Of a DNA stretch of 32,937 bases, positions 7,701 to 31,672 are shown in pieces. Positions within the stretch are counted from its first letter, which is position 1, and each line of letters begins with the position of its first letter. Under the pieces are notes generated by a model. The model worked only from the letters and a program-made list of their open reading frames with translations. It did not search any database and was not told the origin of the DNA. A program made the position numbers and the translations under genes. This stretch comes from Methanomassiliicoccales archaeon (GTDB lineage: Archaea; Thermoplasmatota; Thermoplasmata; SG8-5): assembly GCA_030636255.1 (NCBI GenBank), contig DAOVXH010000002.1, positions 1-32,937 on the forward strand. The letters run 5' to 3'.

Positions 7701-8880
7701 CAACAGCCACAAAATAGATTGCCAGAACTCCGAATGAATCAATATTACGGAATTTATTTATCAATAACTGGATGAGGAAGTAGGCAGTCATAAGAACTAT
7801 GACATATGCATAACCTTTCCATATCAGGGCAACGCCGGCAAGAGATAGGCCAGCCATAACTGCATAGAGAATTGGAACCCTATTAGTCTGAACCAAATCT
7901 TTCACGCCACTAAATATGGCATCTGGTTTGCGCCAGGTGCTAATCCATTCCTTTTGTTCCATTAATTTCAATGCCTTCAAGAAGAAGAAAAAGGTTGTAA
8001 CAATAAAGAACAGAGCCATTGCGTCGTGGTCAGCGTTTGTGAGAACACTTCTTTGAATGTGACCAGGCATAACTGCAAGCAAGAATGCTGCAATCATTCC
8101 GGTTCTCTTACCAAATGCCTCTCTGGCAAGGAAGTATGTTGGGAAGATTGTCAATGCACCCCAGAATGCTGTTGAGAATATGAACACATAGAATGTAGCC
8201 TCATACTGGCCATCTTCGAAGAATGGTGAAAGAGCCAGGCCACCAAGTGTGACTGACCAGTCATAGAGTGGGGGACGTGGGTTCCTTGTACCCAGTGGAT
8301 AATTTAGCATGTCATCCCAGAAATGATGATCCCCAGTATCGGATGCATAATCTATCACAAAGTTGTGATAATACGAGTCAGAACCACCAGATAGTATAAA
8401 CCCATCTTCAGTTGCAGGCACAACACCATAATAAGACCTGACAAATAATGCAAGACAGAATATGAAAACAAGGATTGCCATTACCTTCCAGTTCTTTCCA
8501 ATCCATGTTCTTGCGAAGGTTGTAAGTGGATTGAAGCCTGGCTTCTTTGTTTCCTTTGGAACATCTTCTTCCTTTCTATCGCGTCTTCTGCTTTGTCTGC
8601 CTGTTTGTGTGGGTGTTGTATCAACTGTTTCGTCCTTGAACTCCAAAGAATCAGACTCATCAATGTTTTCATCTTCGGTCTCAAAGGTCTCTGGTACCTC
8701 TTCAGGAATTTCTTCCTCGGGAGATACTGGCATGGGTACTACTGGTTGCTCAAGAGCTTCCGGGTCAGAGTTTTCTACTTCAATCTGTTCAGTAGGCTGC
8801 TCCGGTTCCGGTTGCGACTCTGCAATCGTTTCCTGGACATCTTCAGAACTATCTTTCTTGAGCCACTTCATTCTATTCAC
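1732..8880 (-). CDS. aglB: AglB/STT3-family dolichyl-(di)phosphooligosaccharide-protein glycosyltransferase with a giant C-terminal Ig-like/carboxypeptidase-regulatory-like repeat extension
   Basis: 2382 aa; multi-TM N-terminal half; SGGSDSYYHNFVIDYA luminal DxD-type region; signature WWDYG (AFLSWWDYGFEV). After about residue 1138, many repeats of the form 'SGTV...DGTPV..A.V......TDE.G.Y.....G.Y', then NEW3/CARDB-like domains and a terminal TM with a KKRWIR tail. GTG start at 8880 or ATG at 8871. Confidence 0.92.
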   Translation of the reverse strand: MNRMKWLKKDSSEDVQETIAESQPEPEQPTEQIEVENSDPEALEQPVVPMPVSPEEEIPEEVPETFETEDENIDESDSLEFKDETVDTTPTQTGRQSRRRDRKEEDVPKETKKPGFNPLTTFARTWIGKNWKVMAILVFIFCLALFVRSYYGVVPATEDGFILSGGSDSYYHNFVIDYASDTGDHHFWDDMLNYPLGTRNPRPPLYDWSVTLGGLALSPFFEDGQYEATFYVFIFSTAFWGALTIFPTYFLAREAFGKRTGMIAAFLLAVMPGHIQRSVLTNADHDAMALFFIVTTFFFFLKALKLMEQKEWISTWRKPDAIFSGVKDLVQTNRVPILYAVMAGLSLAGVALIWKGYAYVIVLMTAYFLIQLLINKFRNIDSFGVLAIYFVAVGVGLLIAFPYYFQSLQVPSWFDTPFYMFLGATAFALALIVTRKLPWILVFSGMIGIGLISVLLLAVITPSLLDTLVSTVASGAGYFIQNKQYQTIAEAQAPPFSNLAMSFGMFTFWLSFIGIAWAAIQLPKSWKSDFTFITLWTAISIYMAVTAARFMFNAGPAFAITAGWIIALLITKMDIKKFTDNMKRSAQAHMSTQFKMGMLVSTALLVVLSLVLFLISNAAYPVFVIGFAAIIGIYMLNLIAETNPNRTYNLLTALIPISGALFYILSEFYTDWEFTSATHGFLLFVLLFGYFVLYMNIRKTRFTFTAGIVFLAFFVIMPNVWGGLDAGIPYEVKNDYDLEIYESAPIFMQPSNYDPINGTNWFLGGFGYSLPLNSRYWPAAYDWLATQDTEIYPASERPAFLSWWDYGFEVVNEGDHPTVADNFLGGHQLAGNFIMSQSEADAISLLCARILEGNWRRNYEGVENHLDIEIESMMQSYGIDVNVLNDYLENPGDYVDDILAHPEIYGPRDDIIQEKNARYILLRVLITNELDEEGVVNLYNDLCEFTGNSIRYFGIDSRLFPFSADNTGIFYAPAKLSDHRIDDIGNQPYDFWEIKAIGEFGGEYDLDDIPMDVQLDQENPYKIIYNDMFYNSMLYKCFIGYSGEDVGRGEDAGIPGLTESMATEAIMPGWNMTHFKLEHRTAYWNPYGAEEIQNHTDAWQAMNFWDAYERQMTGDGISDLSDRSSLYQGVMMLKYYDGAIISGKVTMEDGTPLGGIAITVTDDFSIPHQRVVTDENGSYSIIVPYGDITLTTSIGPMDPMSLIGSELNLTSMHIEDYQAMREDEDRDNNGKPDYLIDQDIIINSGDFAGISYWDIDGDEAFTDETDQLLPDVEIHMNHNSIDFDIISTSDDRGIFNISSLPPGGYSATLSVAGTSLTTVSIIITSGQVNTDQFIVPSVSMSGTVTFIDGTPVDFANVNLFSPSEEIYFSVQTDEFGNYTFENIIQGLFTTQAYVEGYASNLQSVEVVPGENNTNDYILFESSYLSGTLRLPDDTPVPNGKMRLTGYTDFILTTDEFGNYSAWIENDIYNLYSECTISSSTYAVNTKLIVDGDARAEIYLQHGTMLNGHISNQYGASAGSLPIYIEEVANGYSMMVYSNAQGDYTVNIPKGEYVIQISSNNYVFYKTQDFTTASYNMDITVLAGTPVSGAISWDGIGLEYASVIFKEPSGEFEGAITDTNGTFSINLKPDVQYQVMISKLGFELIELGTFMADELSDGIFKSMVPVKLPIVGTLSLDDTPLENQNIILKFQSTTNESNYKEIQVGRDGNYSGELGPGQYSVYFIQNISQNNDSLVYQIDDNYEFSTGVYDGRSIELDLNAKIRQNFDISVISDYPLNSNITFENGPEYRRYYVNNGSGNFYIMPGSYVVKASYADNSTIFVGMNDVIVSENSSSISVEIRDARVLRGDIVYGTEAMPSQVIIFNDQNSNGSIIVKTDEVGTFEAVLELDGLYDLAVDFVAYDGDDMKAYHYYANESMNANTSSSLSIFLEREDHYTVISGNLSNGAAGVEIVFYSLEEEFTTITDSLGHYEIALKPNVYTVHIHDQFSHNTYLDLLIVDLDSINVDFDMEKGYRIFGTAYYGLNQYGITELLFQSNISLIPTSTDENGFYEIWLPAGNYAVSSSVNAKVDGVSIRYNVSKTFEIVDSGNQMNLAMSMVEDRNVDLTYDIGQLKETPDNSTVTYKFDISNLGNIQDTYTISATGGNPDWIFELNKYEVTIDAGQDSTASITATIPEGAKISQNAINLAVVSKNDPTVSSSEIINVDIKQTYVLAIEPLASSPIFMNDVISSVFAAKNNGNGDDKVTLYIGNLDDLAANGWKAELGAVDGAELLNDNTRLFNFSIASGGVSDIPITITPIAENPSRQASVLITGYSESGSSAPTSQYIILRYPELQIYTDNVTIIGEEVSTIAAGDEMTNAGVMVMSVSVALGLFYYARKKRWIR

Positions 8881-9290: not shown

Positions 9291-12200
9291 CTACCAATCA
9301 ACAACCCAGTCAACATTAGCATTTACATGAACCCAGTAGGCATTTCCAGCAGCCATTGTGACTGAGCTGAGGTCAGTTTCATCCCTAATTAAAGATGGCT
9401 GAGTCTTATTAAATACCGAAATAATATCAACTGAACCAGGCAGCGTGGTACTCGCCAGTCTATCTGTTCCAGAAGGATAACCTACAAGATTCCATCCAAT
9501 TTTCAGATTTATTGTAGTAGATGGCTCTGAAGCACCGTAAACATACAGGGTAACATCTAAATTAGTTACATTTATCCAGAATCCCATATTGCTGTCTAGG
9601 CCGAAAGCGTCATTGAGTGAGGGTGACCTGTCCAATCCATAGGTTAGCCAGGGATTCATAAGTGTGTCATTATATGTGGCTACTCTGTCCCATTTTCCAT
9701 CAATTGAAGATAATACTGAGGTAATTGAGGTGTCTACCTGCTTCCAAGGCACAGAAACCATATTCCATCCTTGTTCCAGAGAAATAGCATATGATGGCAG
9801 GGGTGCAGAAATCCAACTATTTTCTGTTGTGAATGGCCAGTTGTCCTGATTGTTGCTTACAACACCACCAGAAGATGGAGAATCGTAGTAAAGTTCTACA
9901 AACTCACAGCCTGTGACTGAAGGCTCGGCATACTCGGATATAACCAATCCAGCAGTTTCATCCCCATTAATCCCTGAACCTGGGGTGGCGGTGATGTCAG
10001 CATCCGCACTGATCACCCAGCTAGTGGCGAGTGACCCGTCATGATTTGCACTAATCCGTTGGCAAGTACCGGATGTGAAAGGCTGGCCTGTCTGGCCATC
10101 AAGCAGGGTATTTGTGTCGTCATAGAGCTCATAGGTTTCATCTCCATTGAGAGCGGGGGCCGTCCCCTTGGAGCTGATTGGATCGGCGTTGTCAAGGTAG
10201 AGCACGTTGGAACCCAGAGTTATGCCAAAGTGAGTTTCAAAAGTGCTTTTAGTGGAGTCCCTAGCAATTATCAAATAACCGCCTGGTTCTATGCTCATGG
10301 CAGGGGGGATTGTAGTGGTCTTGGTCGAGTCATACTGCTCAATGCGATATCCTTCCAGGTCAAGTGGAACACCGCCTCCACCACCAGTTGGTATTATGAA
10401 CGGGTCATCGACGAATCCATCAATGTTTGCATCAGGAGTTGTCCAGTTGTCGAAGAAATTGCCTCCCACGGGATATCCCATGTCCCAAGTGTTGAGGCCG
10501 GCATCCTTGGTGTGGTTCGTATTGGTAAGGAAATTATTGTGGAAAATCGTATTCCAGGAGCCCTGAACGTTCATGCCCAACTCGGTTGTGAAAATTGTAT
10601 TGTTCTCAAGGGTATTATTGTCACACCCAGATGTCAGAAATATGCCATTGTAAACTCCAGTGATATTATTGTCTTCGATATTGCAGAGATCAACATTGTT
10701 CAGCTTGATGCCGCAATCGGTTGCCAGTGCTCCGCCATTGACTATCTCGAAGCCGCTGAGCTCGACGCCATTTGCAAGTATCTCGACTACAGTTCCGGAG
10801 CCGCCACCATCGATTATTACATTTCCTGCTGTTGCAGTAATTGTCACTGGCACATCAATAACAACGTTCTCGAAGTATGTGCCATCATCAACCATTATCC
10901 TGTCTCCAGAGGTGGCATTGTCGATTGCCCACTGTATCATGTGATGGTCTGTGCCCTGGTCTATATTATGTACTGGTCCAGGAGGAGCGTTCCAGCCTTC
11001 TTGAGAGGCAAAGGGTAAGTAATCCCTATTAGTGCCCCCTCCGCCGCCTGTGACCGGGGGATTACCTGAGCCCCATATGGAATCCACATACTCGGGATGA
11101 TCGATAAACGGATTTCTATTGTTTTGATTTGAATAGACAATTTCATTTCTGTGCCTGTCAATATCGTCAACTGGGTCATTAATATGCCACTCTAAGAGAG
11201 TTGAAAGTTTTCCGAATATTGACCCGGAAGTTGGTACATAATCAACAAGTTCTAGATCTAATCCCACATTATCCCATGAATCGCCGTCATACCTTGTAGC
11301 CATGTAAAACATCATTCTTGCAATATCCCCTTTAACCGCATCTCTGGGTTCCCATGAATCTGAATCAGAATAGCATTCGGTTGCTTCGGAATTTTGAACG
11401 CCTCCGTTGTCAAAGTCTAGATTACCTCTATCAGAGTTCACAGAAACATCAGACGGTCGCAAATGGTGGGCATCTGTACCCGCTGGAGGTGTCTCACTAA
11501 AATCACCGTGGGATTTTGCCCATACATGTTCTCTGTTCCAATCTGGATATACAGAAGTTTTTGGTATTGACCGTCCCGTATAAAGCAAAATAAAATTATC
11601 AGAATTGTTCGGATCTTCATCAGATTCTGGTAAAATTGTCCATAAATTGTCATAACTTTTTTCCGTATGATTCCTAATTATAATATGAAGGGCATCTTTC
11701 AAATCGTCCCCGACCTTTCCAGCCGCTGCATCATAGTATCCAGCTGGTATATCTCCGCTCTCTCCACCACCTGGAACAGAATATATATTGTCAACAAATC
11801 CATCAAAGTTATTGTCAGGGTTTGTCCAGTCAGACCAGTAATTGCCTCCGGTTGGGGAGGTGAGGTTCCAGACATTTGAACCATCATCATAGGCCTGGAC
11901 CGTGTTTATCAGAAAATTATTGTGATAAATCGTGTTATTGTGGGTCCCATTATCAGATTTCAGACCATATCCGTTCATTGTTATGTCATTCAGTGTGAAC
12001 TGGCACCAGTTGGAGTTGTTGAGGTAAATGCCATTTCCGACATTGCCATTCATTGTGTTATTGGTCACATTGCCATTGACCACATTGAAAAGCGTGACAC
12101 CAGTGTTTGTGAAGTACGGACTGCCAGAGCCCCCGCTGGCATTGGAAAAGCTGCAATGAATTATTCTGAAGTGGTCTGTGGTATTTCCGATATAAATTGC

Positions 12201-12443
12201 ATACCCAAAGCCTGCTGCTTCAATCTCAAGGTTCTCTATCACCCAGGGGGTGCCTGGGTTGCCGTCACCTGAGGAGGCATAGGCTGCGAATTGGATATTT
12301 GAATTAATTCTTATGGGGGAACTGGGAGCCAAGGGTTCTGCAGACTGGCTCTTTTCACCCGCAGTCTCTCCTGGATTGAAAGAGATAAACGCACCACTGA
12401 ATGCAATCAATACGCTGAGCCAGACAACAAAGAATCGCCTCAT
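9291..12443 (-). CDS. Secreted multidomain protein: NosD-like parallel beta-helix, endonuclease I (EndA/NucM-type) domain, second NosD-like beta-helix, lamin-tail-like region
   Basis: Signal peptide MRRFFVVWLSVLIAFSGAFISF after the RBS GAGAGGAGATAT. Nuclease motif NREHVWAKSHGDF...AHHLRPSDVSVNSDRGNLDFDNGG. Beta-helix segments with N(N/T)TI.HNNF...GGN(Y/F)...W..PD.N.DGFVD seen twice. ORF extends to 12476; ATG at 12443 preferred. Confidence 0.82.
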   Translation of the reverse strand: MRRFFVVWLSVLIAFSGAFISFNPGETAGEKSQSAEPLAPSSPIRINSNIQFAAYASSGDGNPGTPWVIENLEIEAAGFGYAIYIGNTTDHFRIIHCSFSNASGGSGSPYFTNTGVTLFNVVNGNVTNNTMNGNVGNGIYLNNSNWCQFTLNDITMNGYGLKSDNGTHNNTIYHNNFLINTVQAYDDGSNVWNLTSPTGGNYWSDWTNPDNNFDGFVDNIYSVPGGGESGDIPAGYYDAAAGKVGDDLKDALHIIIRNHTEKSYDNLWTILPESDEDPNNSDNFILLYTGRSIPKTSVYPDWNREHVWAKSHGDFSETPPAGTDAHHLRPSDVSVNSDRGNLDFDNGGVQNSEATECYSDSDSWEPRDAVKGDIARMMFYMATRYDGDSWDNVGLDLELVDYVPTSGSIFGKLSTLLEWHINDPVDDIDRHRNEIVYSNQNNRNPFIDHPEYVDSIWGSGNPPVTGGGGGTNRDYLPFASQEGWNAPPGPVHNIDQGTDHHMIQWAIDNATSGDRIMVDDGTYFENVVIDVPVTITATAGNVIIDGGGSGTVVEILANGVELSGFEIVNGGALATDCGIKLNNVDLCNIEDNNITGVYNGIFLTSGCDNNTLENNTIFTTELGMNVQGSWNTIFHNNFLTNTNHTKDAGLNTWDMGYPVGGNFFDNWTTPDANIDGFVDDPFIIPTGGGGGVPLDLEGYRIEQYDSTKTTTIPPAMSIEPGGYLIIARDSTKSTFETHFGITLGSNVLYLDNADPISSKGTAPALNGDETYELYDDTNTLLDGQTGQPFTSGTCQRISANHDGSLATSWVISADADITATPGSGINGDETAGLVISEYAEPSVTGCEFVELYYDSPSSGGVVSNNQDNWPFTTENSWISAPLPSYAISLEQGWNMVSVPWKQVDTSITSVLSSIDGKWDRVATYNDTLMNPWLTYGLDRSPSLNDAFGLDSNMGFWINVTNLDVTLYVYGASEPSTTINLKIGWNLVGYPSGTDRLASTTLPGSVDIISVFNKTQPSLIRDETDLSSVTMAAGNAYWVHVNANVDWVVDW

Positions 12444-12536
12444 ATATCTCCTCTCGGGATAGGGATAAATATGCAACCCATCTCCAATTATAGTAATGTA
12501 GCTAAAGGCATTTAGAGTTTATGCCTATACAATATA

Positions 12537-17736: not shown

Positions 17737-19182
17737 TCAAGACTGGCTGGCTGCCACAACAGCTTCAACTGCTGCCATTGCTGCTGCAATCTTTTTATTT
17801 CCGCCCTGGGTCTTCTTTTCTTCCATGTACTTGATAACCTTGTCCATGATATTATTGTTTGGAATATAGCTGGTATCATAGATTCCTCCCTTGAAGACCG
17901 GGTCGTTCATTACAACTTCATGGAATGGAATGTTTGTCTTGACACCACCTATCTGGAATTCCCAGAGAGCACGCTTCATTCTTTCTATGGCACGTGGTCT
18001 GTCCTCGGCCCAGACTATTAGCTTTGCGCCCATTGAATCATAATATGGCGGGAACTTGTACCCTTGATATATTCCAGAATCAACACGCACACCTGGACCA
18101 GATGGCTCAGCATATCTGGATATGGTTCCAGGGCATGGCATGAAATTATTTGCAGGGTCTTCGAAGTTTATACGGCATTCAATGGAGTGACCTTTGACCT
18201 TAATGTCCTCCTGCTTGTATTCCAACTCAAGTCCAGAACCTACCCGGAGCATCTCTCTGGCTAAATCTACACCAGTAATCATTTCAGTAACTGGATGCTC
18301 CACCTGAAGCCTTGTGTTCATTTCCAGGAAGTAGTATTTTCCATCCTTGTACATGAACTCGCAGGTTCCGGCATTATAATAGCCAGCAGTATTTGCTGCA
18401 AGCTTTGCCTGCTCACCCATTTCCATTCTAATCTCTTGAGAAATTGCCTGGCTTGGTGTCTCTTCAATAAGCTTCTGGTTTCTGCGCTGGACAGAGCATT
18501 CTCTGTCATAAACATGAATTAAGTTTCCATGCTTGTCACCAATAATCTGGAATTCTACATGATGAGGTTCATGGATGTACTGCTCAATGAATACTGCATC
18601 GTCGCCGAAGCTGGATTTGGCTAATCTCCTGACCTTTTCCAGTTCTTCTTCCATCACGTCAGCACTATCAACCTTGACAATACCTATTCCACCGCCTCCG
18701 GCACTGGCCTTCAGCATAATTGGGTATCCTATCTCATGGGCTATGTCCTTGGCTTTTTCATGATCGGTAATAGCCTCGGTAACACCGGCCACAACATTTA
18801 CTCCTGCCTTTATCATGCTCTTCTTGGAATCAATCTTGGAGCACATTAGCTTCATGGCATCCACTGGCGGGCCAATGAATTCTATATTATTATCGGCGCA
18901 CATCTGAGCGAATTCGAAATTTTCAGCCATGAAACCATAGCCAGGATGAATTCCATCTGCTCCTGTGTCCAATGCAGCTTCAATAATCTTTTCCTTGACA
19001 AGATAGCTCTCTGCTGAGGGAGCTGGCCCAATGTGGACCTTTTCATCGGCATATCTCACAAAAAGAGAAGTCTTATCTGCGTCTGAATAAACTGCAACGG
19101 TTGGTATTCCCAGTTCCTTGCAGGCTCTCATTATTCGAATGGCGATTTCACCGCGGTTGGCAATCAGTACTTTACTAAGCAT
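17737..19182 (-). CDS. pycA: Pyruvate/acyl-CoA carboxylase biotin carboxylase subunit
   Basis: MLSKVLIANRGEIAIRIMRACKELGI...; KASAGGGGIGI; YHEPHH-type region HEPHHVEFQIIGD; EMNTRLQVEHPVTEMITGVDL. Confidence 0.92.
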   Translation of the reverse strand: MLSKVLIANRGEIAIRIMRACKELGIPTVAVYSDADKTSLFVRYADEKVHIGPAPSAESYLVKEKIIEAALDTGADGIHPGYGFMAENFEFAQMCADNNIEFIGPPVDAMKLMCSKIDSKKSMIKAGVNVVAGVTEAITDHEKAKDIAHEIGYPIMLKASAGGGGIGIVKVDSADVMEEELEKVRRLAKSSFGDDAVFIEQYIHEPHHVEFQIIGDKHGNLIHVYDRECSVQRRNQKLIEETPSQAISQEIRMEMGEQAKLAANTAGYYNAGTCEFMYKDGKYYFLEMNTRLQVEHPVTEMITGVDLAREMLRVGSGLELEYKQEDIKVKGHSIECRINFEDPANNFMPCPGTISRYAEPSGPGVRVDSGIYQGYKFPPYYDSMGAKLIVWAEDRPRAIERMKRALWEFQIGGVKTNIPFHEVVMNDPVFKGGIYDTSYIPNNNIMDKVIKYMEEKKTQGGNKKIAAAMAAVEAVVAASQS

Positions 19183-19191
19183 CTGACTCCC

Positions 19192-21027
19192 TCACTCGAT
19201 TCTCATCATTATAGCGCCGGTCTCAAGCATGTCACCCTCTGCAACGTAGAGTTCCTTGACCTCGCCTTCCCAGTCAGATTCCACATTGCTTTCCATCTTC
19301 ATGACTTCCAGGATGGCCACAACATCGCCCTTCTTCACCTTGTCGCCTACCTTGACCTGGAGCTTCCAGAGATTTCCCTGGCATCCGGTCTTTTGCATAC
19401 CAGGTGCATTTGGGTCTGGGCCAGATGATGGGCAAACTGCTGCGCCTCCACTGGCTGCTATGAATCCGCCAGTTGGCTCAACTTTAACTTCAAAGAACTC
19501 TCCATCTACCTCAACATTAAACTCTGTTGGTATTGGAGCCGGTCCTGCGACCTGCCTGGCCTCTGGAGGTTCTGTCTCGATATAAACATCTGGCAATTCT
19601 GGGAATAAACTTTTCACCATTGCTCTTGTTGCTGGGTGATCCTTGTTAAGTGGAAGTTCGTCAGATGTAAATTCTGGAATTGCCTCGCCCAGGAGGAATT
19701 TTAAGCCCACTTCTGGGAACAATGTGTATGTCATTATGTTCTCGTCAGTCATGTCAATGCTTGGTGCCTTTTCTGCTAATTCACTCTTTCTGACATCCCA
19801 CATGTTCTTGTCCACAAGGTCTGCTGGCCTGCAGTCAATGACTTCATCCTTCCAGTTAGGCCCCAATACAATTTCCATAATCTTTGGGTCTATTGGGCCT
19901 GGGGACTTGCCGTACATTCCTTTACAGTAATCAATTGTTTCTTTTGGTATCTTCTCGTATCTGCCGAAAAGAACGTTCATGACCGCCTGAACACCAACAA
20001 CCTGGCTGGTTGGAGTAACAAGCGGAGGGTATCCGAGTTCTTCACGGACCTTTGCGGTCTCATCAAGAACCAAGTAAAATTTATCTGATGCCTTTTGCAT
20101 CTCCAACTGGCTAACCAGGTTGGACAGCATTCCACCAGGTATCTGATGAACCATAACTGATGGGTCAACCTTCATGGCCTCATGACGAACAAGATGTCTG
20201 TACTTGTGCCAGATTTCCATGAAGTATTTTCTGATCTCAATAAGCTTGGCAAGGTCATAACCTGTATCATATTTTGTGCCCTGAAGTGCTGCAACAACAC
20301 TCTCTGTTGGAGCGCCACCGGTTCCACCTGATATAGGGGACATTGAAGTGTCTAATACATCAACGCCAGCTTCACATGCGGCCCAGTATGAGAGACCGGT
20401 CATTCCACTGGTATAATGGCTGTGTAAATCGATTGGTGCCTTTCCTCCGGCATCCTTGTAACCTCTGATTATTCCATCAGCATACTTTGGAGAAATCATG
20501 CCTGCCATATCCTTAATACAAACTGACTGGCAGCCCCAGCTTTCAAGCTTGAGCAGGTCATCAACATATCTCTCAATTGTGTGAACCGGACTGATTGTGT
20601 AACTTATGCAGCCCTGGGCATGTCCTCCCTCTTCGAGGACTGCCTTGATTGGAACCTCAATGTTCCTCATGTCATTGAGTGCGTCGAAGATACGGAAAAC
20701 ATCAACACCATTCTTCTTAGCCAGACCTACAAACCTGCGAACAACATCATCAGGGAAGTTCCAGTAAGCAACAATGTTCATTGCCCTCTCCAGCATCTGA
20801 GTTTTGGTGTTTGGCATTACTGCCTTCAGATCCCTCATTCTTTTCCATGGGTCTTCATTAAGGAAACGAATTGGTACATCGAACGTGGCACCACCCCAGA
20901 CCTCCATGGACCAGAAACCTATTTCGTCCATTTTCTCTGCAATCGGGAGCATGTCCTCCGTTCTCATCCTAGTCGCAAGAATCGACTGATGCGCATCTCT
21001 TAGAGTTTGATCGTGTAATTCTACCAT
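19192..21027 (-). CDS. pycB: Pyruvate carboxylase subunit B / oxaloacetate decarboxylase alpha-type carboxyltransferase with C-terminal biotinyl domain
   Basis: HDQTLRDAHQSILATRMRTEDM, VEVWGGATFDV-type motif MEVWGGATFDVPIRFLNEDPW, IKDMAGMISP, C-terminal biotinylation motif LEVMKMES. Confidence 0.92.
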   Translation of the reverse strand: MVELHDQTLRDAHQSILATRMRTEDMLPIAEKMDEIGFWSMEVWGGATFDVPIRFLNEDPWKRMRDLKAVMPNTKTQMLERAMNIVAYWNFPDDVVRRFVGLAKKNGVDVFRIFDALNDMRNIEVPIKAVLEEGGHAQGCISYTISPVHTIERYVDDLLKLESWGCQSVCIKDMAGMISPKYADGIIRGYKDAGGKAPIDLHSHYTSGMTGLSYWAACEAGVDVLDTSMSPISGGTGGAPTESVVAALQGTKYDTGYDLAKLIEIRKYFMEIWHKYRHLVRHEAMKVDPSVMVHQIPGGMLSNLVSQLEMQKASDKFYLVLDETAKVREELGYPPLVTPTSQVVGVQAVMNVLFGRYEKIPKETIDYCKGMYGKSPGPIDPKIMEIVLGPNWKDEVIDCRPADLVDKNMWDVRKSELAEKAPSIDMTDENIMTYTLFPEVGLKFLLGEAIPEFTSDELPLNKDHPATRAMVKSLFPELPDVYIETEPPEARQVAGPAPIPTEFNVEVDGEFFEVKVEPTGGFIAASGGAAVCPSSGPDPNAPGMQKTGCQGNLWKLQVKVGDKVKKGDVVAILEVMKMESNVESDWEGEVKELYVAEGDMLETGAIMMRIE

Positions 21028-21136: not shown

Positions 21137-24100
21137 TTAAAACTTCAAAGCAACCTTTTTCTTGGCAACTCTTGGAGCTTCATCTTTCTTTTCTTCGGCA
21201 GGTGGCTGAACTGGAGGTGTTGGTGGTTTTTCTTCTGGCTTGTCCTTTATTGTATCGCCATCCTCATCTACAGGTACCGGTTTCACTGCTGTTGGCTTGT
21301 CTAAATCGTCTATAATATCTTCCGAGGCAGTTTCGTCCATCTTTTCTGTATACTCGGTTCCACATCCAGTACACTTGCCGAACCTTCTTGCACAAAGAGA
21401 GTGATATTCATTGCCGCAGGAGCATCTTACTATGTCTGTACCAGCTTTTGCCTTGCCCATGCAGATATCGCACTTGGTATCTACTGTGGCCTTCAATTCT
21501 TCGAATGTTGATTCAACTGATGGTTTGGCTGCTTCAACCTTTGCTTCCATGACAAATACATGATCGCTTACCTCATCCTCGAAGACCTTGCCATCCATTA
21601 TTCTTGTGGATGATAATTTGATTATGACTGGAACATCTCCAAGTGTCTCAAATTTCATCTTCATCTTCTGGATTATTTCACCGCCGCCGCCTCTGAGAGT
21701 CTCGATTGGTTTAAAGCCACCAATGGAAATGTCTCCAATGATGTTTACTTCCACATCCTTGGCAAGGGCCTTTCCCTGATTTTTGATAACCAGGTCTGTA
21801 TCAACCCATTCTCCCTTCTGGACCTTATCTACAATTATGTCTGCTACAAGCTGTGGTCTGAAGGCATCTACTTCATTGTTTACTACCTCAATGGTCTTTT
21901 TCATTGTGGCCAGTGCCATCTGATAATCCTTATCTTTCTGGTCTTTTGCCTGGTCAAAGAGTGTCTGAGCTTCCTTCACATTGATGCCAAATTTCTTTGA
22001 ATTGGAAATGATTTTATCGGCTTCGTAGGTAAGTTCAATAAACTCTCTCTCGAAACCCTTCTCAAGGTCTATGGCATCTTTGGATTTCTCCACATGCCCA
22101 ATAGCCTCCCTGTATTTACCCTGATCAAATGCAGCCTTTGCCTTGGTCAGAAGTTCCTGACTGGCATCTATGTCAGCACCAACCTGCTTTGCATGTTCCA
22201 TTGCACGCTCTGATTGCGAATAATGGTCCTCGAAGAATGCCTTTAATTTACCCTGAATATCCTCCAAGGTGGTGTTTATCTTCTCACTGGACACTTCAAA
22301 TTTGCCAGTATCCAGGAAGGTCTTTGCCTCTGCTAGAAGTGAGCTCGAACCTGCAACATCTATGCTATACTGGCTTGCAAGGTCACTTAATTTGTAGGTT
22401 CTTGAAAGTTGTGTGGTAAGATGTGAATTGGACAGTCTCCTGGCCTCCAAAGCACCCTCCCTGGCAATTTCGGTGGCAGTCCGGTAATCATTGCCTGCCT
22501 TTGCACTTTCTGCATCAGCCAGAAGTTTTTCGGCGATTGCCACATCTGCCTTGATATTCTTGGCAGAGTTAATCTGGGCATTAAGAGTTTGGATAGCCTC
22601 CATTGTCTCACTGTAATCTTCGCTAACCTCATGAAGTTCATCCCCACTTTGGATAGCTTGTTCCAGGGCCTTGACATAATTTCCTTTCTTCATCTCATCC
22701 CTGGCCTGGGAGATTATGGCCTTTGCTTTCTTGGATACAATGCCTATGCCCTCTGCCTCTTTGAGTTTATTTTCGGCTGTGCTTATGGCCTTCTCGGCCA
22801 TCTCCTGCTGGAGGCCAACCTTCTCAAGTTCACCTTCACTCTTCATTGCCTCTGACAGGGCTGTTTTATATTCCTTATTATTGAAAGCATCGGTGGCTTT
22901 GTCCATGAGTTTTTCAGCCGCATTAACATTAATTCCTTCCAGCTTTGCCTTTTCAATTGAAACCCTGAATGCTTTTATTGTATCGGAAACATGTGCTTCT
23001 ATAGCCTTTCTGGATTCTGAAGCACTTTTAACTGCCAGGTCAATTGCCTGCTGATAGTTCGAATTGTTAAGCTCGGTGAGTGCACCCTCGAGCAATTTTT
23101 TGGACTCAGGCATACTAGCATGAAGAGTATCACCATCATTCAAGGCATCCTGGGCATTCTTGAGTTCCATGGCTGCCTTCTTGCTGAAATTTCTGATATC
23201 TTCAAGCTCAAGTTTCACCTGCTTGGCCTGCTCAACTGCTTCCTTGAAATTTTTACCACCAAAAGCACTTCTTGCTGATTCGAGCCGTTCTTCCTGTGCA
23301 GTGATTGCCAGATTCAGGTCCTTGGCATCCATCAATGTAGATTGTGTTGCTGATATCAAATTTGAAATTCCTGGTTCGATGATTGCCAGTGTATCCTTCT
23401 CCAGCTTATCTGCAAGTGGTAATGCATCTGTTTGATTTTGAGCCTTGATGTGATTGGATAGCTCATGGGCATTGCCTTCAAGATCACCAGCTTCTATCTC
23501 CAGCTCTTTCATAAGCGCAAGGCTTTCTTCAACAAAGCTGAGTTTGCTGGCTGCAGTGTAAAGGTTCAGCATAACTTCTGTTTCCTCTTTTGCCTTCTCA
23601 GCTTCCTTGAGTGCATTTTCATAATCAAATCTCTCGAACATGCCCTTTGCAGAAAGAAGGATTGCCATTGCTTCTTTTACATCGACCTTGTTCTTCTTGG
23701 CCTCTGCAAGTATTGCGGCTGCCTGATTAATTGCATCATAGGACTTCTGGTGGAAGTCAATCTGTCTTTCAGCAGAATCCTTTGCCCCCTTGCTCTCCAT
23801 GTGGGTTGTGAAGAAATCGGCCTTGGAAAATGCGGTCTTTGCTCTCTTTAATGCCTCTTTCATGTCTGAAATATCAATTCCCAGCTTCTTGGCCTCGATG
23901 GCAGCCAGTTTACCCTCGCCAAACATTCGCTCGGCTGCTACATATTGCTGGTTCTTTGCATCTGAGAGGGATTTTTCAGCATCAACCAAAACACTGGAAA
24001 AGTCCCTGTTATTCATCATATCATCGCATTTATTGCTTGTATTTTCAAGTGCCTGAACATCACAGCCCATCTTCTTTGCTACGGTTAAAGCCAAGTTAAG

Positions 24101-25879
24101 GTCAGAGACCATGGCCCTGGCCTTCTGAGATTGGCTGGTCTCAAGCATATTGAGTGCCTTGTCTGCAAGCTCGAAGGATTTGTCATAGGCATTCTTGTCA
24201 AATTCCTCTTTTGCAGAGTCCAAGAGCCCCTGAACCATATTTACATCAATATTCTCTGCATCGCATATAGCCAGTTCTGCAGAAGCAATGGTATTGGACA
24301 CATGGATTTTGATAATATCTTCAGCACGCTTGGTACTATCAGCAGAAAGCTCAATGGCCTTCTGATAATTGCCAGATTTAGTTGCATCAATAGCCTGTTT
24401 CATCATTGACTCTGGCTCTTTTAAATTTGCTCCGAGCCTGTCCCCGGCACTTATTACCAGTTCTGCAATTTCAATACATTCAGTGGCAAATGAGTAGAGG
24501 GCACTGCCCAGTTCTTCCTTTGCCTGTTTAACATATGCCTGGACAGATTCAAAATCCCTTGCCTCAAGAGATTCTTTTGCAGAAGATATGGAATTATCCA
24601 CATTGGACATCTCGGCACCAAGTTCCCGTGCAATTGTAATTTGCTCGTCAATACTTGCAATTGTGTTCTCGATGTCTTCATACTCGCCGACTATCTCGTC
24701 CACAACATCATCGCCCTTATTGGCCATCTCAAGGGCAATTGCGAAATCACCATCTTTCAGGGCATTCTTTGCATTATTTAGAAATTCCATTGCTCCACTG
24801 AGGTCTGCACCTATTTTGTTTGCTGCAATGAATTTAGATCTTGATTGTGATATTGTCCCCAGAACTCTCTGGAACTGGGCATTGTATATTTCAGATTCTA
24901 GCTCCTTCATGGCCTCAATAGAATCAAGATAATTGCCCTCTTTCAAAGCAGATTTGGCAATGCTCATTATCTCGACAGACTTGTCCACATCCGATTCTAT
25001 CCGCTCGGCTTCCTGAATCTTCAATGCATGGCCTTCAAGGGCATCGCTTATTGCACGATTAAGAGTTTTTTCTGCTTCAGACTTTGAAAGCCTGGCAGAG
25101 CTCATAGCGGCTTCAAGGTTTGCGGCGGTTATCTCATCCTCTGTACGAGTTATGAGTTCTGAAACCTTTTCAACGTCTGTATCAAGCTCCTTGGCTGTGA
25201 TTAAATAACTTTTTGCCTCATCTAGAATCTCATCTACCTGGGATGAAAGTTCTGAACCAACAGATTCCATGCATTCCTTGAGTTTCTCCAGTGACACAAA
25301 GTAATCCTGTGATTCCATGGACTTCCTTGCCTGTTCCAGCATATCTTCGCTGGCAGATACATCTTCACCCATATTTCTCGCAAGCACAACCATGGACTGG
25401 GCCTTGGAAAATGTCTCGGAAAGATGCTCCTGTGCAACCTTCTCAAGTGCACCCCAGCTCTCCTTTGCCAGGTCCATTGCAGTTCCATAATCTTTTTCTT
25501 TAAGAGCCTTTTTTGCCTCTTCTAATACCTCTAGGCCATCTCCGCAATCTGCACCTACTTCTTTTCCAAGCTCGGCAAGTTTGTCAACTGAATCAATAAT
25601 AGACTGAACACCATCTGTAAAACATTTCTGGGCAGTATCTTTTGCCTGGATTGCTTGGCTAAGCGCATCTTTGTATTCCTTATCCTGAATTGAAGCACTG
25701 GCAATAACAAGAAGCTCTTCAGCTTTTGCTATATTGATATCAGAAACCTTGGCAGATTTAATTATGCCTTCTGCTATTTGCATCTCATCTTCAGCTTGCT
25801 GGCGATTCTTCTTTTCTTCTTTTGCTTTTTCTTCCAGCTGCTTAGTGAGTTGCATGGCCTTCAGATAACTGCTTGTCAC
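21137..25879 (-). CDS. Giant helical-repeat (solenoid/coiled-coil) protein with CARDB-like domain, C4HC3 RING-like zinc finger and Pro/Lys-rich tail
   Basis: 1580 aa, no signal peptide; about 21 repeats of ~66-70 aa (A..K.LG.D...A..LL..AK..L..GDY..A...A.......), then DLVIKNQGKALAKDVEVNIIGDISIGG..., then CDICMGKAKAGTDIVRCSCGNEYHSLCARRFGKCTGC. GTG start at 25879. Confidence 0.8.
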   Translation of the reverse strand: MTSSYLKAMQLTKQLEEKAKEEKKNRQQAEDEMQIAEGIIKSAKVSDINIAKAEELLVIASASIQDKEYKDALSQAIQAKDTAQKCFTDGVQSIIDSVDKLAELGKEVGADCGDGLEVLEEAKKALKEKDYGTAMDLAKESWGALEKVAQEHLSETFSKAQSMVVLARNMGEDVSASEDMLEQARKSMESQDYFVSLEKLKECMESVGSELSSQVDEILDEAKSYLITAKELDTDVEKVSELITRTEDEITAANLEAAMSSARLSKSEAEKTLNRAISDALEGHALKIQEAERIESDVDKSVEIMSIAKSALKEGNYLDSIEAMKELESEIYNAQFQRVLGTISQSRSKFIAANKIGADLSGAMEFLNNAKNALKDGDFAIALEMANKGDDVVDEIVGEYEDIENTIASIDEQITIARELGAEMSNVDNSISSAKESLEARDFESVQAYVKQAKEELGSALYSFATECIEIAELVISAGDRLGANLKEPESMMKQAIDATKSGNYQKAIELSADSTKRAEDIIKIHVSNTIASAELAICDAENIDVNMVQGLLDSAKEEFDKNAYDKSFELADKALNMLETSQSQKARAMVSDLNLALTVAKKMGCDVQALENTSNKCDDMMNNRDFSSVLVDAEKSLSDAKNQQYVAAERMFGEGKLAAIEAKKLGIDISDMKEALKRAKTAFSKADFFTTHMESKGAKDSAERQIDFHQKSYDAINQAAAILAEAKKNKVDVKEAMAILLSAKGMFERFDYENALKEAEKAKEETEVMLNLYTAASKLSFVEESLALMKELEIEAGDLEGNAHELSNHIKAQNQTDALPLADKLEKDTLAIIEPGISNLISATQSTLMDAKDLNLAITAQEERLESARSAFGGKNFKEAVEQAKQVKLELEDIRNFSKKAAMELKNAQDALNDGDTLHASMPESKKLLEGALTELNNSNYQQAIDLAVKSASESRKAIEAHVSDTIKAFRVSIEKAKLEGINVNAAEKLMDKATDAFNNKEYKTALSEAMKSEGELEKVGLQQEMAEKAISTAENKLKEAEGIGIVSKKAKAIISQARDEMKKGNYVKALEQAIQSGDELHEVSEDYSETMEAIQTLNAQINSAKNIKADVAIAEKLLADAESAKAGNDYRTATEIAREGALEARRLSNSHLTTQLSRTYKLSDLASQYSIDVAGSSSLLAEAKTFLDTGKFEVSSEKINTTLEDIQGKLKAFFEDHYSQSERAMEHAKQVGADIDASQELLTKAKAAFDQGKYREAIGHVEKSKDAIDLEKGFEREFIELTYEADKIISNSKKFGINVKEAQTLFDQAKDQKDKDYQMALATMKKTIEVVNNEVDAFRPQLVADIIVDKVQKGEWVDTDLVIKNQGKALAKDVEVNIIGDISIGGFKPIETLRGGGGEIIQKMKMKFETLGDVPVIIKLSSTRIMDGKVFEDEVSDHVFVMEAKVEAAKPSVESTFEELKATVDTKCDICMGKAKAGTDIVRCSCGNEYHSLCARRFGKCTGCGTEYTEKMDETASEDIIDDLDKPTAVKPVPVDEDGDTIKDKPEEKPPTPPVQPPAEEKKDEAPRVAKKKVALKF

Positions 25880-26926: not shown

Positions 26927-27808
26927 TTATGCCGGTATGATTGACACTACTGTAATCTTGAAGACCAGTGTTTTTCCAACAACCTCTTTATTGTAATCCG
27001 CTGTATATGTACCTTCACTCAGATTAACATCAGTAATAAGGAACTGCCCTATCTGGTCAATTCCAGACAACTCGCCTTCATCTTCGGAACTTAAGAGATG
27101 CTTAATTACTATCTCTCCAGTTCCATTGTTTACATTTGTATCTATGGATATCACCTTGGAATTCCAGTTACCATCAATGCTCACTATCTCCCCTACCATG
27201 GGGTTATGTTTGAGCATTATATGCTGTGATACCGGGTCAATATAGAAAACCGTCATGTTCCAGCCATAAACATTGCTTTCTACAGTTGTGCCAACTATTG
27301 GTTCCACCTGATAGATTTCCTGGAAAGCCGAGTAATTGGTTAACCAGTCATAGATTGGTACGGTCTGGGTGAGTGGCCTTGTTTCAATTAGATCCTCATT
27401 TGCATAGCCATATGCCTCTTCTGTAGGTATTGTGAGCATCCTTGTCTGATTGATGCCCATTCCTACTACTCCATTATCGAAACCCTGTATCATCTGACCT
27501 TCACCTACTGTGAAGCTCAATGGATTGAATGGAGCGGTAGAAGAAAAGGAGAGGCTTTTTGGATATAGCGTATGGTTTTCAGCAACGCTCTGGAGAGATG
27601 TATCAAATACTGTTCCATCCTCGAACATGCCTACGTAATCGACACTTATCTGGTCACCTATTTGAACGGTGAGTCCAGATTCCACTGGATCATGGGTTGT
27701 TGATAATGCACCATATGCGGCATAACCACCTGCTATCACCAGTGCTACTACAACGATGAAAGCTATTGCCATAAATTCCCATCTTTTCCAGATGCTGTCA
27801 TTTGCCAT
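26927..27808 (-). CDS. FKBP-type peptidyl-prolyl isomerase, membrane-anchored/extracytoplasmic
   Basis: N-terminal TM (FMAIAFIVVVALVIAGGYAAYGAL); VQIGDQISVDYVGMFEDGTVFDTS...; VGEGQMIQGFDNGVVGMGINQTRMLTIPTEEAYGY; long C-terminal insert/flap-like domain. Confidence 0.9.
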   Translation of the reverse strand: MANDSIWKRWEFMAIAFIVVVALVIAGGYAAYGALSTTHDPVESGLTVQIGDQISVDYVGMFEDGTVFDTSLQSVAENHTLYPKSLSFSSTAPFNPLSFTVGEGQMIQGFDNGVVGMGINQTRMLTIPTEEAYGYANEDLIETRPLTQTVPIYDWLTNYSAFQEIYQVEPIVGTTVESNVYGWNMTVFYIDPVSQHIMLKHNPMVGEIVSIDGNWNSKVISIDTNVNNGTGEIVIKHLLSSEDEGELSGIDQIGQFLITDVNLSEGTYTADYNKEVVGKTLVFKITVVSIIPA

Positions 27809-28219: not shown

Positions 28220-29182
28220 TTATCTCTGAATTTCCTTGCCTATTAGAGCAAAGAAGGCAATAAGTGATTCCAACTGGATGCGGCTATTGCTTCCCTCAAC
28301 CATGCGGAATTCTACCTCTCCCATCTTATCCATGAGCCTGACCTTTCCCAATTCGGAGATTTCCAGCTCAAAGACGCTGCGATGCATCTGACGTATCACA
28401 TCCTCGCCAGAAAGCCCATACTCAACAAGCAGCTTGTCCAGTGAGTCCCTGGCTTCAACAAATTTGCCTTCCAGTGCCAGTTCCATCATTTTCATTATGT
28501 CCTTTGGCCGGCCGGTGGCACTTGTCTTGAACACAGTGTCAGAATCAACCTTTCCTCCAAGTGCAGAGGATACCTGAAATACATTTGTTGCCTTTCTCAG
28601 ATCGCCGCCAGCCACGTAAAGGAGGGCTTCCAGACCATCATCTGTGATTTCAATTTTTTCTGCCTTGGCAATGCGCTTTATGTATTCGATAACGTCCTTT
28701 GGAAGCAGGGGCCTGAATCTAAAAACAGCGCATCTGGACTGAATCGGGTCAATGATTTTTGAAGAATAATTGCATGATAGAACGAAACGACATGTACCGG
28801 AGTACTTTTCCATGGTCCTGCGAAGGGCGGCCTGGGCGTCCGAGGTCAGTGCATCGGCCTCGTCCAGGAAGATAATCTTGAAAGAAGTGGCACCCAGTGG
28901 AGCGGTCCTGGCAAAGTCCTTTATTGTCTTGCGAACAACATCAATACCTCTCTGGTCAGAAGCATTTAGCTCCTGAAAATTAGTGTGCCAGTCATCACCG
29001 AACATCTGCTTGGTAAGTGCAATGGCGCAGGTGGTTTTTCCGGTTCCAGCAGGTCCAGCGAACATTAGATGGGGCATATTAGTGGTGCCAACATATGCCT
29101 TCAAACGTTCAACTATCTCAGTATGACCAACAACATCTTCTAGAATTTTCGGGCGGTATTTCTCAATCCACAGTTCTTTCAT
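28220..29182 (-). CDS. rfcS: Replication factor C small subunit
   Basis: WIEKYRPKILEDVVGH, GPAGTGKTT, FLDEADALTSDAQAALRRTMEKY, QSRCAVFRFRPL. Confidence 0.96.
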   Translation of the reverse strand: MKELWIEKYRPKILEDVVGHTEIVERLKAYVGTTNMPHLMFAGPAGTGKTTCAIALTKQMFGDDWHTNFQELNASDQRGIDVVRKTIKDFARTAPLGATSFKIIFLDEADALTSDAQAALRRTMEKYSGTCRFVLSCNYSSKIIDPIQSRCAVFRFRPLLPKDVIEYIKRIAKAEKIEITDDGLEALLYVAGGDLRKATNVFQVSSALGGKVDSDTVFKTSATGRPKDIMKMMELALEGKFVEARDSLDKLLVEYGLSGEDVIRQMHRSVFELEISELGKVRLMDKMGEVEFRMVEGSNSRIQLESLIAFFALIGKEIQR

Positions 29183-29190
29183 GAGACCAC

Positions 29191-30990
29191 CTATTTATTG
29201 ACAACTACCTGGAACTCAGGAGTATCTCTGACCTGATCGAAGGACGGGTCAGTCTTTGCCCTTTCCCTGAACTCCTCTTCAATATCAGCCGAACGGGTAA
29301 GGAAAGGCACTACCAGCTTCAAATTACCCTTCATGGCCTCTGCTGTGGACTTGTAATACCATGCAGCGGCATTGTTCATCTCTCTCTTCACCACTTCATT
29401 GAGGGAAGCAGTACAATCGTCGTATCTACCGGCCTTGAAATGGGCCGCTCCCTTGGTCAGGTACGCATCTATATCATCACCGTCAATGGCAATAAGCTGG
29501 TCAAAGGTTGCAATAGCATCATCATATTTTTCCAGTACAAATTGCACTGAGCCCTTGTTATGCAATGCAACAGTATCGGTAGATACCAGCTCCACTGATT
29601 TTGTGAAATATTCAAGCGCCTTATCATAATCATCATTTTCGAAATAATGGTCTCCAGCATCATTGTAAAGGCCGGCATTGTCCGGGTCTGCTGCTATCTT
29701 TGTTTCCCACGGGCCCATCTGCTCAGGTTCAGCTACGGGTTCTTCCACAACAGGTTCCGGTGCCGGTTCCTCAGCGACCTCTGGAGCAGCTACTGGTTCT
29801 TCCATAACTGGCTCTGGTGCAGGCTCTTCCATAACAGGTGCTTCCTCCTGTGCTGGCTCTGCTACTTCCATAGGCACTTCCACAACTACTTCTGGAGCAG
29901 GTTCTTCTGCCACTGGTTCATCTGAACTCGATGGCTCTTCAATAACTGGTTCTGGTTCGGCTGGTGCCAGTTCAATCTCCGGCTCTTCCATTGGCACTGG
30001 TGTTGCCTCCACGGAAATATCTGGTGCTATCACTTCAGCCTCTGGTGCAGGTTCTTCTATTGCAATCTCCGCAACAGCAGGTTCTGCTCCGGCAGGCCTG
30101 AGCTCTGCCAATTTGGACTTGTAATCTTCATTGTCCGGTGCCAGACTGGTTAATTTCTGATAAATTTCAGTGGCTTCGTCACTCTTTCCCTCTGACAGGA
30201 GATGTTCTACTTTCTTTTCCAGAAGGCCTATATCATCTGGCCTCAGTTCAAGAAGCTTGTCAACAGCTGTCATATTATTGGGATTCAGTTCCAGAACCTT
30301 CTCATATACCTCTGGTTCCTTCACCAGGTAGCCCAGTCTAAGGTATGCCTCTATTGCATCCGAGGTATTGCCCTCGGCAACAAGGAGCTCAGCACGCTTT
30401 CGCCACAGCCCAGGATCCTTTGGATTCTTTTTGAGCTTGTTTGTGATGGTTTCCAGGTCTACCGGAGATAATTCATCCAGCTTATTTTTGAACTCCTGGT
30501 TATCAGGTGCTATCTCCACCATCTTTTCCAACATCTCAGCAGCATCGTCCTCTTTTTTGCTCATAATGAGAGCATCAACCTTATTCTCCATGGCCTCAAG
30601 GTTATTTTCCTCGTATTTCAGAACCTCATCAAAGCACATGACTGCATAATTCAACATTGCGCCACTCTTCATGTGGACAATACCACGACTCATCCAGGCA
30701 TCAGTATTCTTGGGATTAAGTTGGGTTGCCTTGTCAAAACATTCAACTGCCCTATCTGGTTCTCCAGTTTCAAAGAGACCATGGCCAGTTCTTGTGAAAA
30801 GTGATGAGTATTCCTCTGGATTTTCTGCAATTCCTTCTTCCCGGTAAAGATATCTATGGCCACGTCTGTATTCAGAAGCTGCCTTGTCAAGGTCACCACC
30901 TTTCAGATGGGCGTCCGCCTCGTCAAGCAGTTCCTCGATGGCTGCAACGGCCTTGCTTTTTTTATCTTTCTTACCACCAAAAATAGGCAT
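29191..30990 (-). CDS. TPR-repeat protein with a low-complexity acidic/proline-rich central linker
   Basis: N- and C-terminal TPRs (AVECFDKATQLNPKNTDAWMSRGIVHMKSG; YDKALEYFTKSVELVSTDTVALHNKGSVQFVLEKYDDAIATFDQLI), separated by a run of EEPAPEPV(M/V)EEPVA-type repeats. Confidence 0.9.
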   Translation of the reverse strand: MPIFGGKKDKKSKAVAAIEELLDEADAHLKGGDLDKAASEYRRGHRYLYREEGIAENPEEYSSLFTRTGHGLFETGEPDRAVECFDKATQLNPKNTDAWMSRGIVHMKSGAMLNYAVMCFDEVLKYEENNLEAMENKVDALIMSKKEDDAAEMLEKMVEIAPDNQEFKNKLDELSPVDLETITNKLKKNPKDPGLWRKRAELLVAEGNTSDAIEAYLRLGYLVKEPEVYEKVLELNPNNMTAVDKLLELRPDDIGLLEKKVEHLLSEGKSDEATEIYQKLTSLAPDNEDYKSKLAELRPAGAEPAVAEIAIEEPAPEAEVIAPDISVEATPVPMEEPEIELAPAEPEPVIEEPSSSDEPVAEEPAPEVVVEVPMEVAEPAQEEAPVMEEPAPEPVMEEPVAAPEVAEEPAPEPVVEEPVAEPEQMGPWETKIAADPDNAGLYNDAGDHYFENDDYDKALEYFTKSVELVSTDTVALHNKGSVQFVLEKYDDAIATFDQLIAIDGDDIDAYLTKGAAHFKAGRYDDCTASLNEVVKREMNNAAAWYYKSTAEAMKGNLKLVVPFLTRSADIEEEFRERAKTDPSFDQVRDTPEFQVVVNK

Positions 30991-31165: not shown

Positions 31166-31672
31166 ATGGTGGAGAGACTAATACGCAGGTCCAGGTCAAG
31201 GCTAAGAAGGCCATTGCCGCCTCCCCCGAAGGAGCCAGTGCCACATATCCCAAAAAAACCAATACTGGCCTCAACTGGAACCAGGGTTGATAGATTGTGT
31301 GCAATTTGTCTGGGAAAGCTCAGCCCTGGAGTTGCCATAACATTCTGTAATTGTGGTAAATTCTTTCATCTGGATTGTATTTCCGAGGTGAAAATCTGTC
31401 CAATATGCCAGGAGGAGATGGAATTCAGCCATATTGTGGTTGAGGAGGATGCCGCCCCCCAGGACCAGGAAATTACCGATTATGAGGAAGATATTATTGA
31501 GTTAGTGTTCCAGTGCCCCTTGTGCCAGGAATATGTTGATGAGGATGCTGCGGAGTGCAAATGCGGAGCGCAGTTTGACACGGAAGTGGAAATATACACA
31601 TGCCCAGAATGTGATGAAGAAGTCGAGCCAGATGTTTCTGCCTGTCCACATTGCAATGTTGACTTCGGATGA
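31166..31672 (+). CDS. C4HC3 RING-like zinc-finger protein with two C-terminal zinc ribbons
   Basis: LCAICLGKLSPGVAITFCNCGKFFHLDCISEVKICPICQEEM, then CPLCQEYVDEDAAECKCG and CPECDEEVEPDVSACPHC; basic/proline-rich N-terminus. Confidence 0.85.
   Translation: MVERLIRRSRSRLRRPLPPPPKEPVPHIPKKPILASTGTRVDRLCAICLGKLSPGVAITFCNCGKFFHLDCISEVKICPICQEEMEFSHIVVEEDAAPQDQEITDYEEDIIELVFQCPLCQEYVDEDAAECKCGAQFDTEVEIYTCPECDEEVEPDVSACPHCNVDFG

Follow-up and report, generated by a model that had tools for sequence, protein, structure and literature searches.

A giant repeat protein of Thermoplasmata with a C-terminal RING-type domain, a candidate scaffold for chromosome organization or cell division

Many families of the archaeal class Thermoplasmata encode a giant protein in which a long helical-repeat solenoid is followed by a beta sandwich and a RING-type domain with conserved zinc ligands, and in separate clades its gene stands in operon-like linkage to smc-scpA-scpB and to ftsZ. 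We put the chance that this protein is a scaffold rod for chromosome organization or cell division, with its RING as a docking module, at about even, and this reading fits the giant better than that of a dedicated E3 ligase. The protein was analyzed in a stretch of 32,937 nucleotides (the window) from a Methanomassiliicoccales archaeon whose genome comprises 1.7 Mb in 210 contigs and is listed as 77% complete. Families of the genome set searched are labeled f1, f2 and so on, and loci carry L-numbers.

Architecture of the giant protein

The giant is a 1580-aa protein encoded at 21137–25879 on the minus strand from a GTG start, and it is composed of 21 helical repeats of 62 aa, a CARDB-like sandwich, a Prok-RING_1 domain and a Pro/Lys tail. 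This is the layout of repeat scaffold, adaptor and RING-like end that an initial annotation, made from the sequence alone, had described, and the open reading frame and C-terminal motif quoted there proved exact, with the eight ligands at residues 1470–1506.

The solenoid spans residues 50–1340 (21860–25732, minus strand) as tandem units, each of one helix of ~15 aa and one of ~39 aa. A repeat profile seeded with units defined in the AF2 model and then iterated traced the repeat from residue 50 as far as about residue 1362, in 21 in-step units of about 62 aa each, and in the AF2 model residues 1–520 form alternating helices of ~39 and ~15 residues with a pLDDT of 90.7. Foldseek returned no significant PDB match for the solenoid fold (best E = 0.44), and homology to HEAT/HAWK proteins was rejected on that basis. 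An EzrA-like spectrin fold was also rejected (Foldseek E = 4), and an NCBIfam SAXB match in the solenoid, which fell under the cut-off, was taken as helical-repeat noise.

The sandwich occupies residues 1344–1444 approximately (21548–21850, minus strand) and was modeled with a pLDDT of about 90. Foldseek likened it to the CARDB domain of PF1109 (3idu/2kl6, TM about 0.52 by target length) and to adaptin ears, which supports the CARDB-like sandwich that had been placed before the RING, but only one of nine orthologs of the giant matched Pfam CARDB. The RING-type domain, a binuclear treble clef of C4HC3 type, lies at 21362–21472 (minus strand). Behind it, the Pro/Lys-rich tail noted earlier is indeed present (21137–21322, minus strand); it also contains Glu, is predicted to be disordered (pLDDT below 50) and ends in KKKVALKF. 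Of 67 giants, 18 share a KKxVALK-like end. Within its own genome, the encoded KKKVALKF occurs a single time, in the giant gene itself, and the idea that it is a motif common to the genome was rejected.

Giants of about 1440–1625 aa occur across many families of Thermoplasmata, and orthologs are present throughout the window's order; the named close relatives are MAGs whose records place them in Thermoplasmata, Methanomassiliicoccales or Euryarchaeota. We regard the giant as a soluble rod of about 170 kDa that is shared by many Thermoplasmata families. Pfam and NCBIfam hold no named family for the whole protein, so that the initial annotation was right to see no named archaeal family in the protein as a whole but not in its zinc-binding domain, which belongs to Prok-RING_1 (PF14446). 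That family covers the domain only and leaves the repeat scaffold without a named protein family. The giant is of interest as a protein of 1500–1600 aa in many families that has no family name and whose repeats have no solved fold.

The RING-type domain

The zinc finger of the giant is a RING-type domain. Its eight ligands are spaced C-x2-C-x12-C-x-C-x4-H-x2-C-x6-C-x2-C, and the isolated domain scored 31.6 bits against Prok-RING_1 (cut-off 29.1), with scores just below the cut-off (24.7–28.7) when longer flanks were included. In an alignment of 38 RING sequences, among them two further RING proteins of the window's genome, all eight ligands are invariant and 37 members match Prok-RING_1. A profile of this alignment matched, over the whole domain, the RING-H2 E3s RNF165 and Arkadia in the PDB (E = 4e-6 to 2e-5) and, more weakly, the Pygopus PHD (E = 2e-4). 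The AF2 model of the RING stretch is strand-strand-helix with a pLDDT of 77–86. Cross-brace pairing of the ligands (1,2,5,6 / 3,4,7,8) is likely, as it fits both the ligand order and the modeled hairpin and helix. The RING-like order that had been read from the eight ligands is thus borne out by family membership, profile matches and predicted structure, which together do not support the alternative of two unrelated zinc knuckles.

Among known fingers, Prok-RING_1, the family to which the domain belongs, is likewise a C4HC3 binuclear treble clef. The RING-H2 domains of RNF165 and Arkadia instead have C3H2C3 ligands, and the giant has fewer residues (6) between C6 and C7. PHD and RINGv fingers share the ligand order of the giant, but the giant lacks a Trp before C7 and its C6–C7 loop is short.

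Sixty-seven of 72 loci with the giant, or a large piece of it, carry the eight-ligand motif at the C-terminus, so that the ligands are conserved in orthologs from many Thermoplasmata families, well past what chance would produce; the spacing is 12/1/4/6 in 49, 12/2/4/6 in 17 and 12/1/4/4 in one. Full-length giants without the RING were found at four loci (L099, L101, L102 and L118) and occur in f21, f30 and one f22 genome. The persistence of such RING-less giants would be expected if the giant were purely a structural rod whose zinc finger caps or stabilizes one end. Conservation in the RING nevertheless extends past the ligands, to a hydrophobic residue before C2, a CxCG motif and an Arg third after C6 (59 of 67), and we consider a purely structural rod unlikely.

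Gene neighborhoods and a possible scaffold role

In the window's own family, the gene order TPR, rfcS, 84-aa protein, FKBP, giant, pycB, pycA is syntenic. Upstream of the giant, Pfam identified the genes for a TPR protein (29191–30990), rfcS (28220–29182) and an FKBP-type isomerase (FKBP_C, 26927–27808), and downstream lies a pycB/pycA-like pair (17737–21027) that was named by eye from sequence; all are on the minus strand and kept in this family.

Other lineages have different neighbors. In 23 loci of six families other than the window's, the giant follows smc-scpA-scpB on the same strand, typically 79–201 bp behind scpB, although one of these loci, L133, ends at a contig edge before smc. SMC and ScpB were confirmed by Pfam in one locus, and ScpA, which has no Pfam match, was named because of where its gene lies and because the proteins at the different loci resemble one another. 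In four loci of f15, the giant lies 3–49 bp behind ftsZ. When 65 giants were placed on a tree, both linkages proved to be clustered: the FtsZ-linked giants form a single clade with 100% support, and the SMC label requires two changes. Because of this clustering, we interpret the SMC linkage as essentially one event within a conserved synteny that also includes hutH, rather than as several independent gains.

That the giant is linked to smc-scpAB or to ftsZ in separate clades suggests a scaffold for chromosome organization or cell division. The 21 two-helix repeats would form the rod, at whose end the RING-type treble clef and the CARDB-like sandwich would act as docking heads for partner proteins. 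From gene linkage, we infer that the giant may interact with SMC or division machines; the RING would then be mainly a protein-docking module and, in genomes that encode a ubiquitin-like protein (Ubl), might also serve as an E3-type adaptor. Besides the two linkages, this reading is favored by the rfcS and FKBP genes upstream of the giant in the window's family, by the invariance of the zinc ligands and by the retention of giant and RING where neither E2 nor Ubl was detected. It is weakened by the variation of neighbors between lineages, by the location of smc on a different contig from the giant in the window's own genome, by the essentially single origin of the SMC linkage within a synteny shared with hutH, and by the RING-less giants. 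Its place in smc-scpAB and ftsZ operons of some lineages makes the giant a candidate part of the chromosome or division machinery in archaea.

Two eukaryotic comparisons are by analogy only. HAWK subunits of condensin and cohesin are also helical-repeat proteins, but the 62-aa repeats of the giant, with their long and short helices (39 and 15 residues), have no significant PDB fold match and do not form a HEAT-repeat solenoid of the HAWK type; where HAWKs bind kleisin, the corresponding link for the giant is its gene linkage to scpA/scpB. Nse1 of SMC5/6 is an example of a RING subunit in an SMC complex. The searched passages on archaeal SMC (PMC7055376), ESCRT (PMC11188069) and Caldiarchaeum ubiquitylation (PMC5654768) give no account of the giant.

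Two loci carry KaiC-like genes. At L089, a KaiC-like pair precedes the giant, and two KaiC-like ATPase genes adjoin L035:994-3045, which encodes a membrane-type protein (683 aa) that combines the same RING type with a zinc ribbon.

A ubiquitin-like system in Thermoplasmata

The initial annotation had raised a resemblance to a eukaryotic-type E3 or scaffold, and a search of the window's genome for a ubiquitin-like modifier with E1 and E2 homologs did find candidates for each. Genes for Ubl, E2 and a JAB protease are adjacent (L172:772-2176; G000:C180), and the giant is not linked to this cluster in its own genome. The E2 (G000:C180, 168 aa) contains FHPNI and GGYVCTKLL, with its Cys aligned to the catalytic Cys of plant UBC; the JAB protease passes its Pfam threshold; and the Ubl has PDPEGG followed by an extension at its C-terminus. 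A profile of the Ubl family matches ubiquitin; the match is strong to tandem chains and weak (about 0.001–0.01) to single ones. Two E1-like ThiF proteins are encoded away from the cluster, one of them at L194:6204-6992. Across the class, 87 of the 250 Thermoplasmata genomes had a match to the Pfam E2 family UQ_con above its cut-off, and the 14 control genomes had none. Judged from these gene sequences, Thermoplasmata apparently carry a complete Ubl-E1-E2-JAB gene set, and its coexistence with one RING type would make ubiquitin-like signaling testable outside Asgard archaea and Caldiarchaeum.

PADLOC defence models did not match the E2, the Ubl, the small RING protein described below or the giant. 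For ThiF and JAB, matches to the E1-E2 and JAB models reflect family membership only, and a PADLOC defence system was rejected.

The Caldiarchaeum E1-E2-RING cascade includes srfp, a small RING-H2 protein that is encoded in the operon and has an invariant Trp, according to the passages searched in PMC5654768. Thermoplasmata resemble it in having Ubl, E1-like, E2 and JAB genes that are often clustered, but the giant differs from srfp in being huge, encoded off-cluster in its own genome and Trp-less. In the portions of the open-access literature searched, we recognized no description of a Thermoplasmata Ubl-E2 operon or of the giant.

Outside the window's genome, L178:4969-7053 encodes a protein of 694 aa that weakly matches RING and RWD, beside a cluster of E2 and E1-like genes in a 5.2 Mb Thermoplasmata genome of f17.

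Is the giant an E3?

If the giant were an E3-type scaffold, its solenoid would hold substrates and its RING would recruit the Ubl-charged E2. The components for this are in place in the window's genome, including an E2 with HPN and a catalytic Cys and a Ubl with PDPEGG and a ubiquitin-matching profile; the RING profile matches RNF165 and Arkadia; and at five f9 loci the giant has a Ubl-E2 fusion as its divergent neighbor. Within the RING, C1-x-[ILVF]-C2 is found in 57 of 67 giants and a Pro after C7 in 46 of 67. However, most members of the window's own family have Thr or Ala at the latter position, the E2 neighbors in f9 have lost the active Cys, the 6 residues from C6 to C7 are fewer than the matched RING-H2 domain has, and none of the 67 RINGs contains any Trp. 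Some known E3 RINGs also lack the E2-contacting Trp.

The distribution of E2 bears on the same question. The RING-giant is present in 94 of 250 Thermoplasmata genomes, 44 with and 50 without an E2 match (odds ratio 2.3, p 0.0025, a value that ignores phylogeny and is affected by MAG gaps). Four of the genomes without a match, all from f15, are listed as 99% complete, and f15 is not among the matches listed in the Ubl search. Thus, of the features of a RING E3, the giant has an E2 in the same genome but neither consistent co-occurrence with E2 nor an E2-contacting Trp, and co-occurrence and the missing Trp both weaken E3 as the default reading. The earlier E3 proposal therefore stands as regards the Ubl, E2, JAB and E1-like proteins of the genome and the f9 fusion beside the giant, but is countered by the many genomes that keep the giant with intact RING but have no detectable E2 or Ubl, by the absence of Trp and by the smc-scpAB and ftsZ neighbors. 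An E3 role, as far as sequence allows a judgment, is possible though rather unlikely, and would be most plausible where E2 is encoded, as in the window's own lineage.

A different E3 candidate is encoded in the window itself. The small RING protein (31166–31672, plus strand) has the same RING type at 31298–31408, followed by zinc ribbons. Its family is present in 47 genomes, and E2 accompanies it in 44 of these (odds ratio 55, p 5e-21, again with phylogeny ignored and MAG gaps having an effect), compared with 44 of 94 for the giant, and we saw no full-length copy in f23 and f15, both of which lack E2. This protein might be an E3 of the Ubl system and the RING of the giant a paralogous docking module, which would be compatible with the scaffold role. 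Against this, the small RING gene lies outside the Ubl operon, its RING also lacks Trp, f8, f11, f9 and f19 have E2 but few or no clear full-length copies, and the co-occurrence counts take no account of phylogeny; we rate it as a serious prospect at somewhat less than an even chance. Since RING-giants are kept without detectable E2 or Ubl and have no Trp, the giant does not appear to need the Ubl system, and the small RING protein is the better E3 candidate.

The scaffold and ligase roles could also be joined, with the giant as an SMC/FtsZ-associated Ubl ligase scaffold that was ancestral in Thermoplasmata and has been kept in non-catalytic form where the Ubl system was lost. We consider this very unlikely; if true, it would provide an archaeal, non-Asgard link between ubiquitin-like modification and chromosome segregation or cell division.

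Other RING proteins and other genes of the window

The same RING type occurs near the C-terminus of proteins of about 605–624 aa (L037, L039, L040 and L041), and four f19 proteins of about 1230–1264 aa (L104, L105, L106 and L107) have a hydrophobic stretch and such a RING at their C-terminal end. Outside the window's class, open reading frames of about 3150–3200 aa in f35 (L201 and L202) contain a matching sandwich-RING region.

Elsewhere in the window, 1732–8880 encodes a 2382-aa protein that by eye begins as an STT3/AglB-like transferase (WWDYG) and continues with long beta-rich repeats, and 9291–12476 encodes a 1061-aa secreted-looking protein with a stretch that by eye is endonuclease-I-like.
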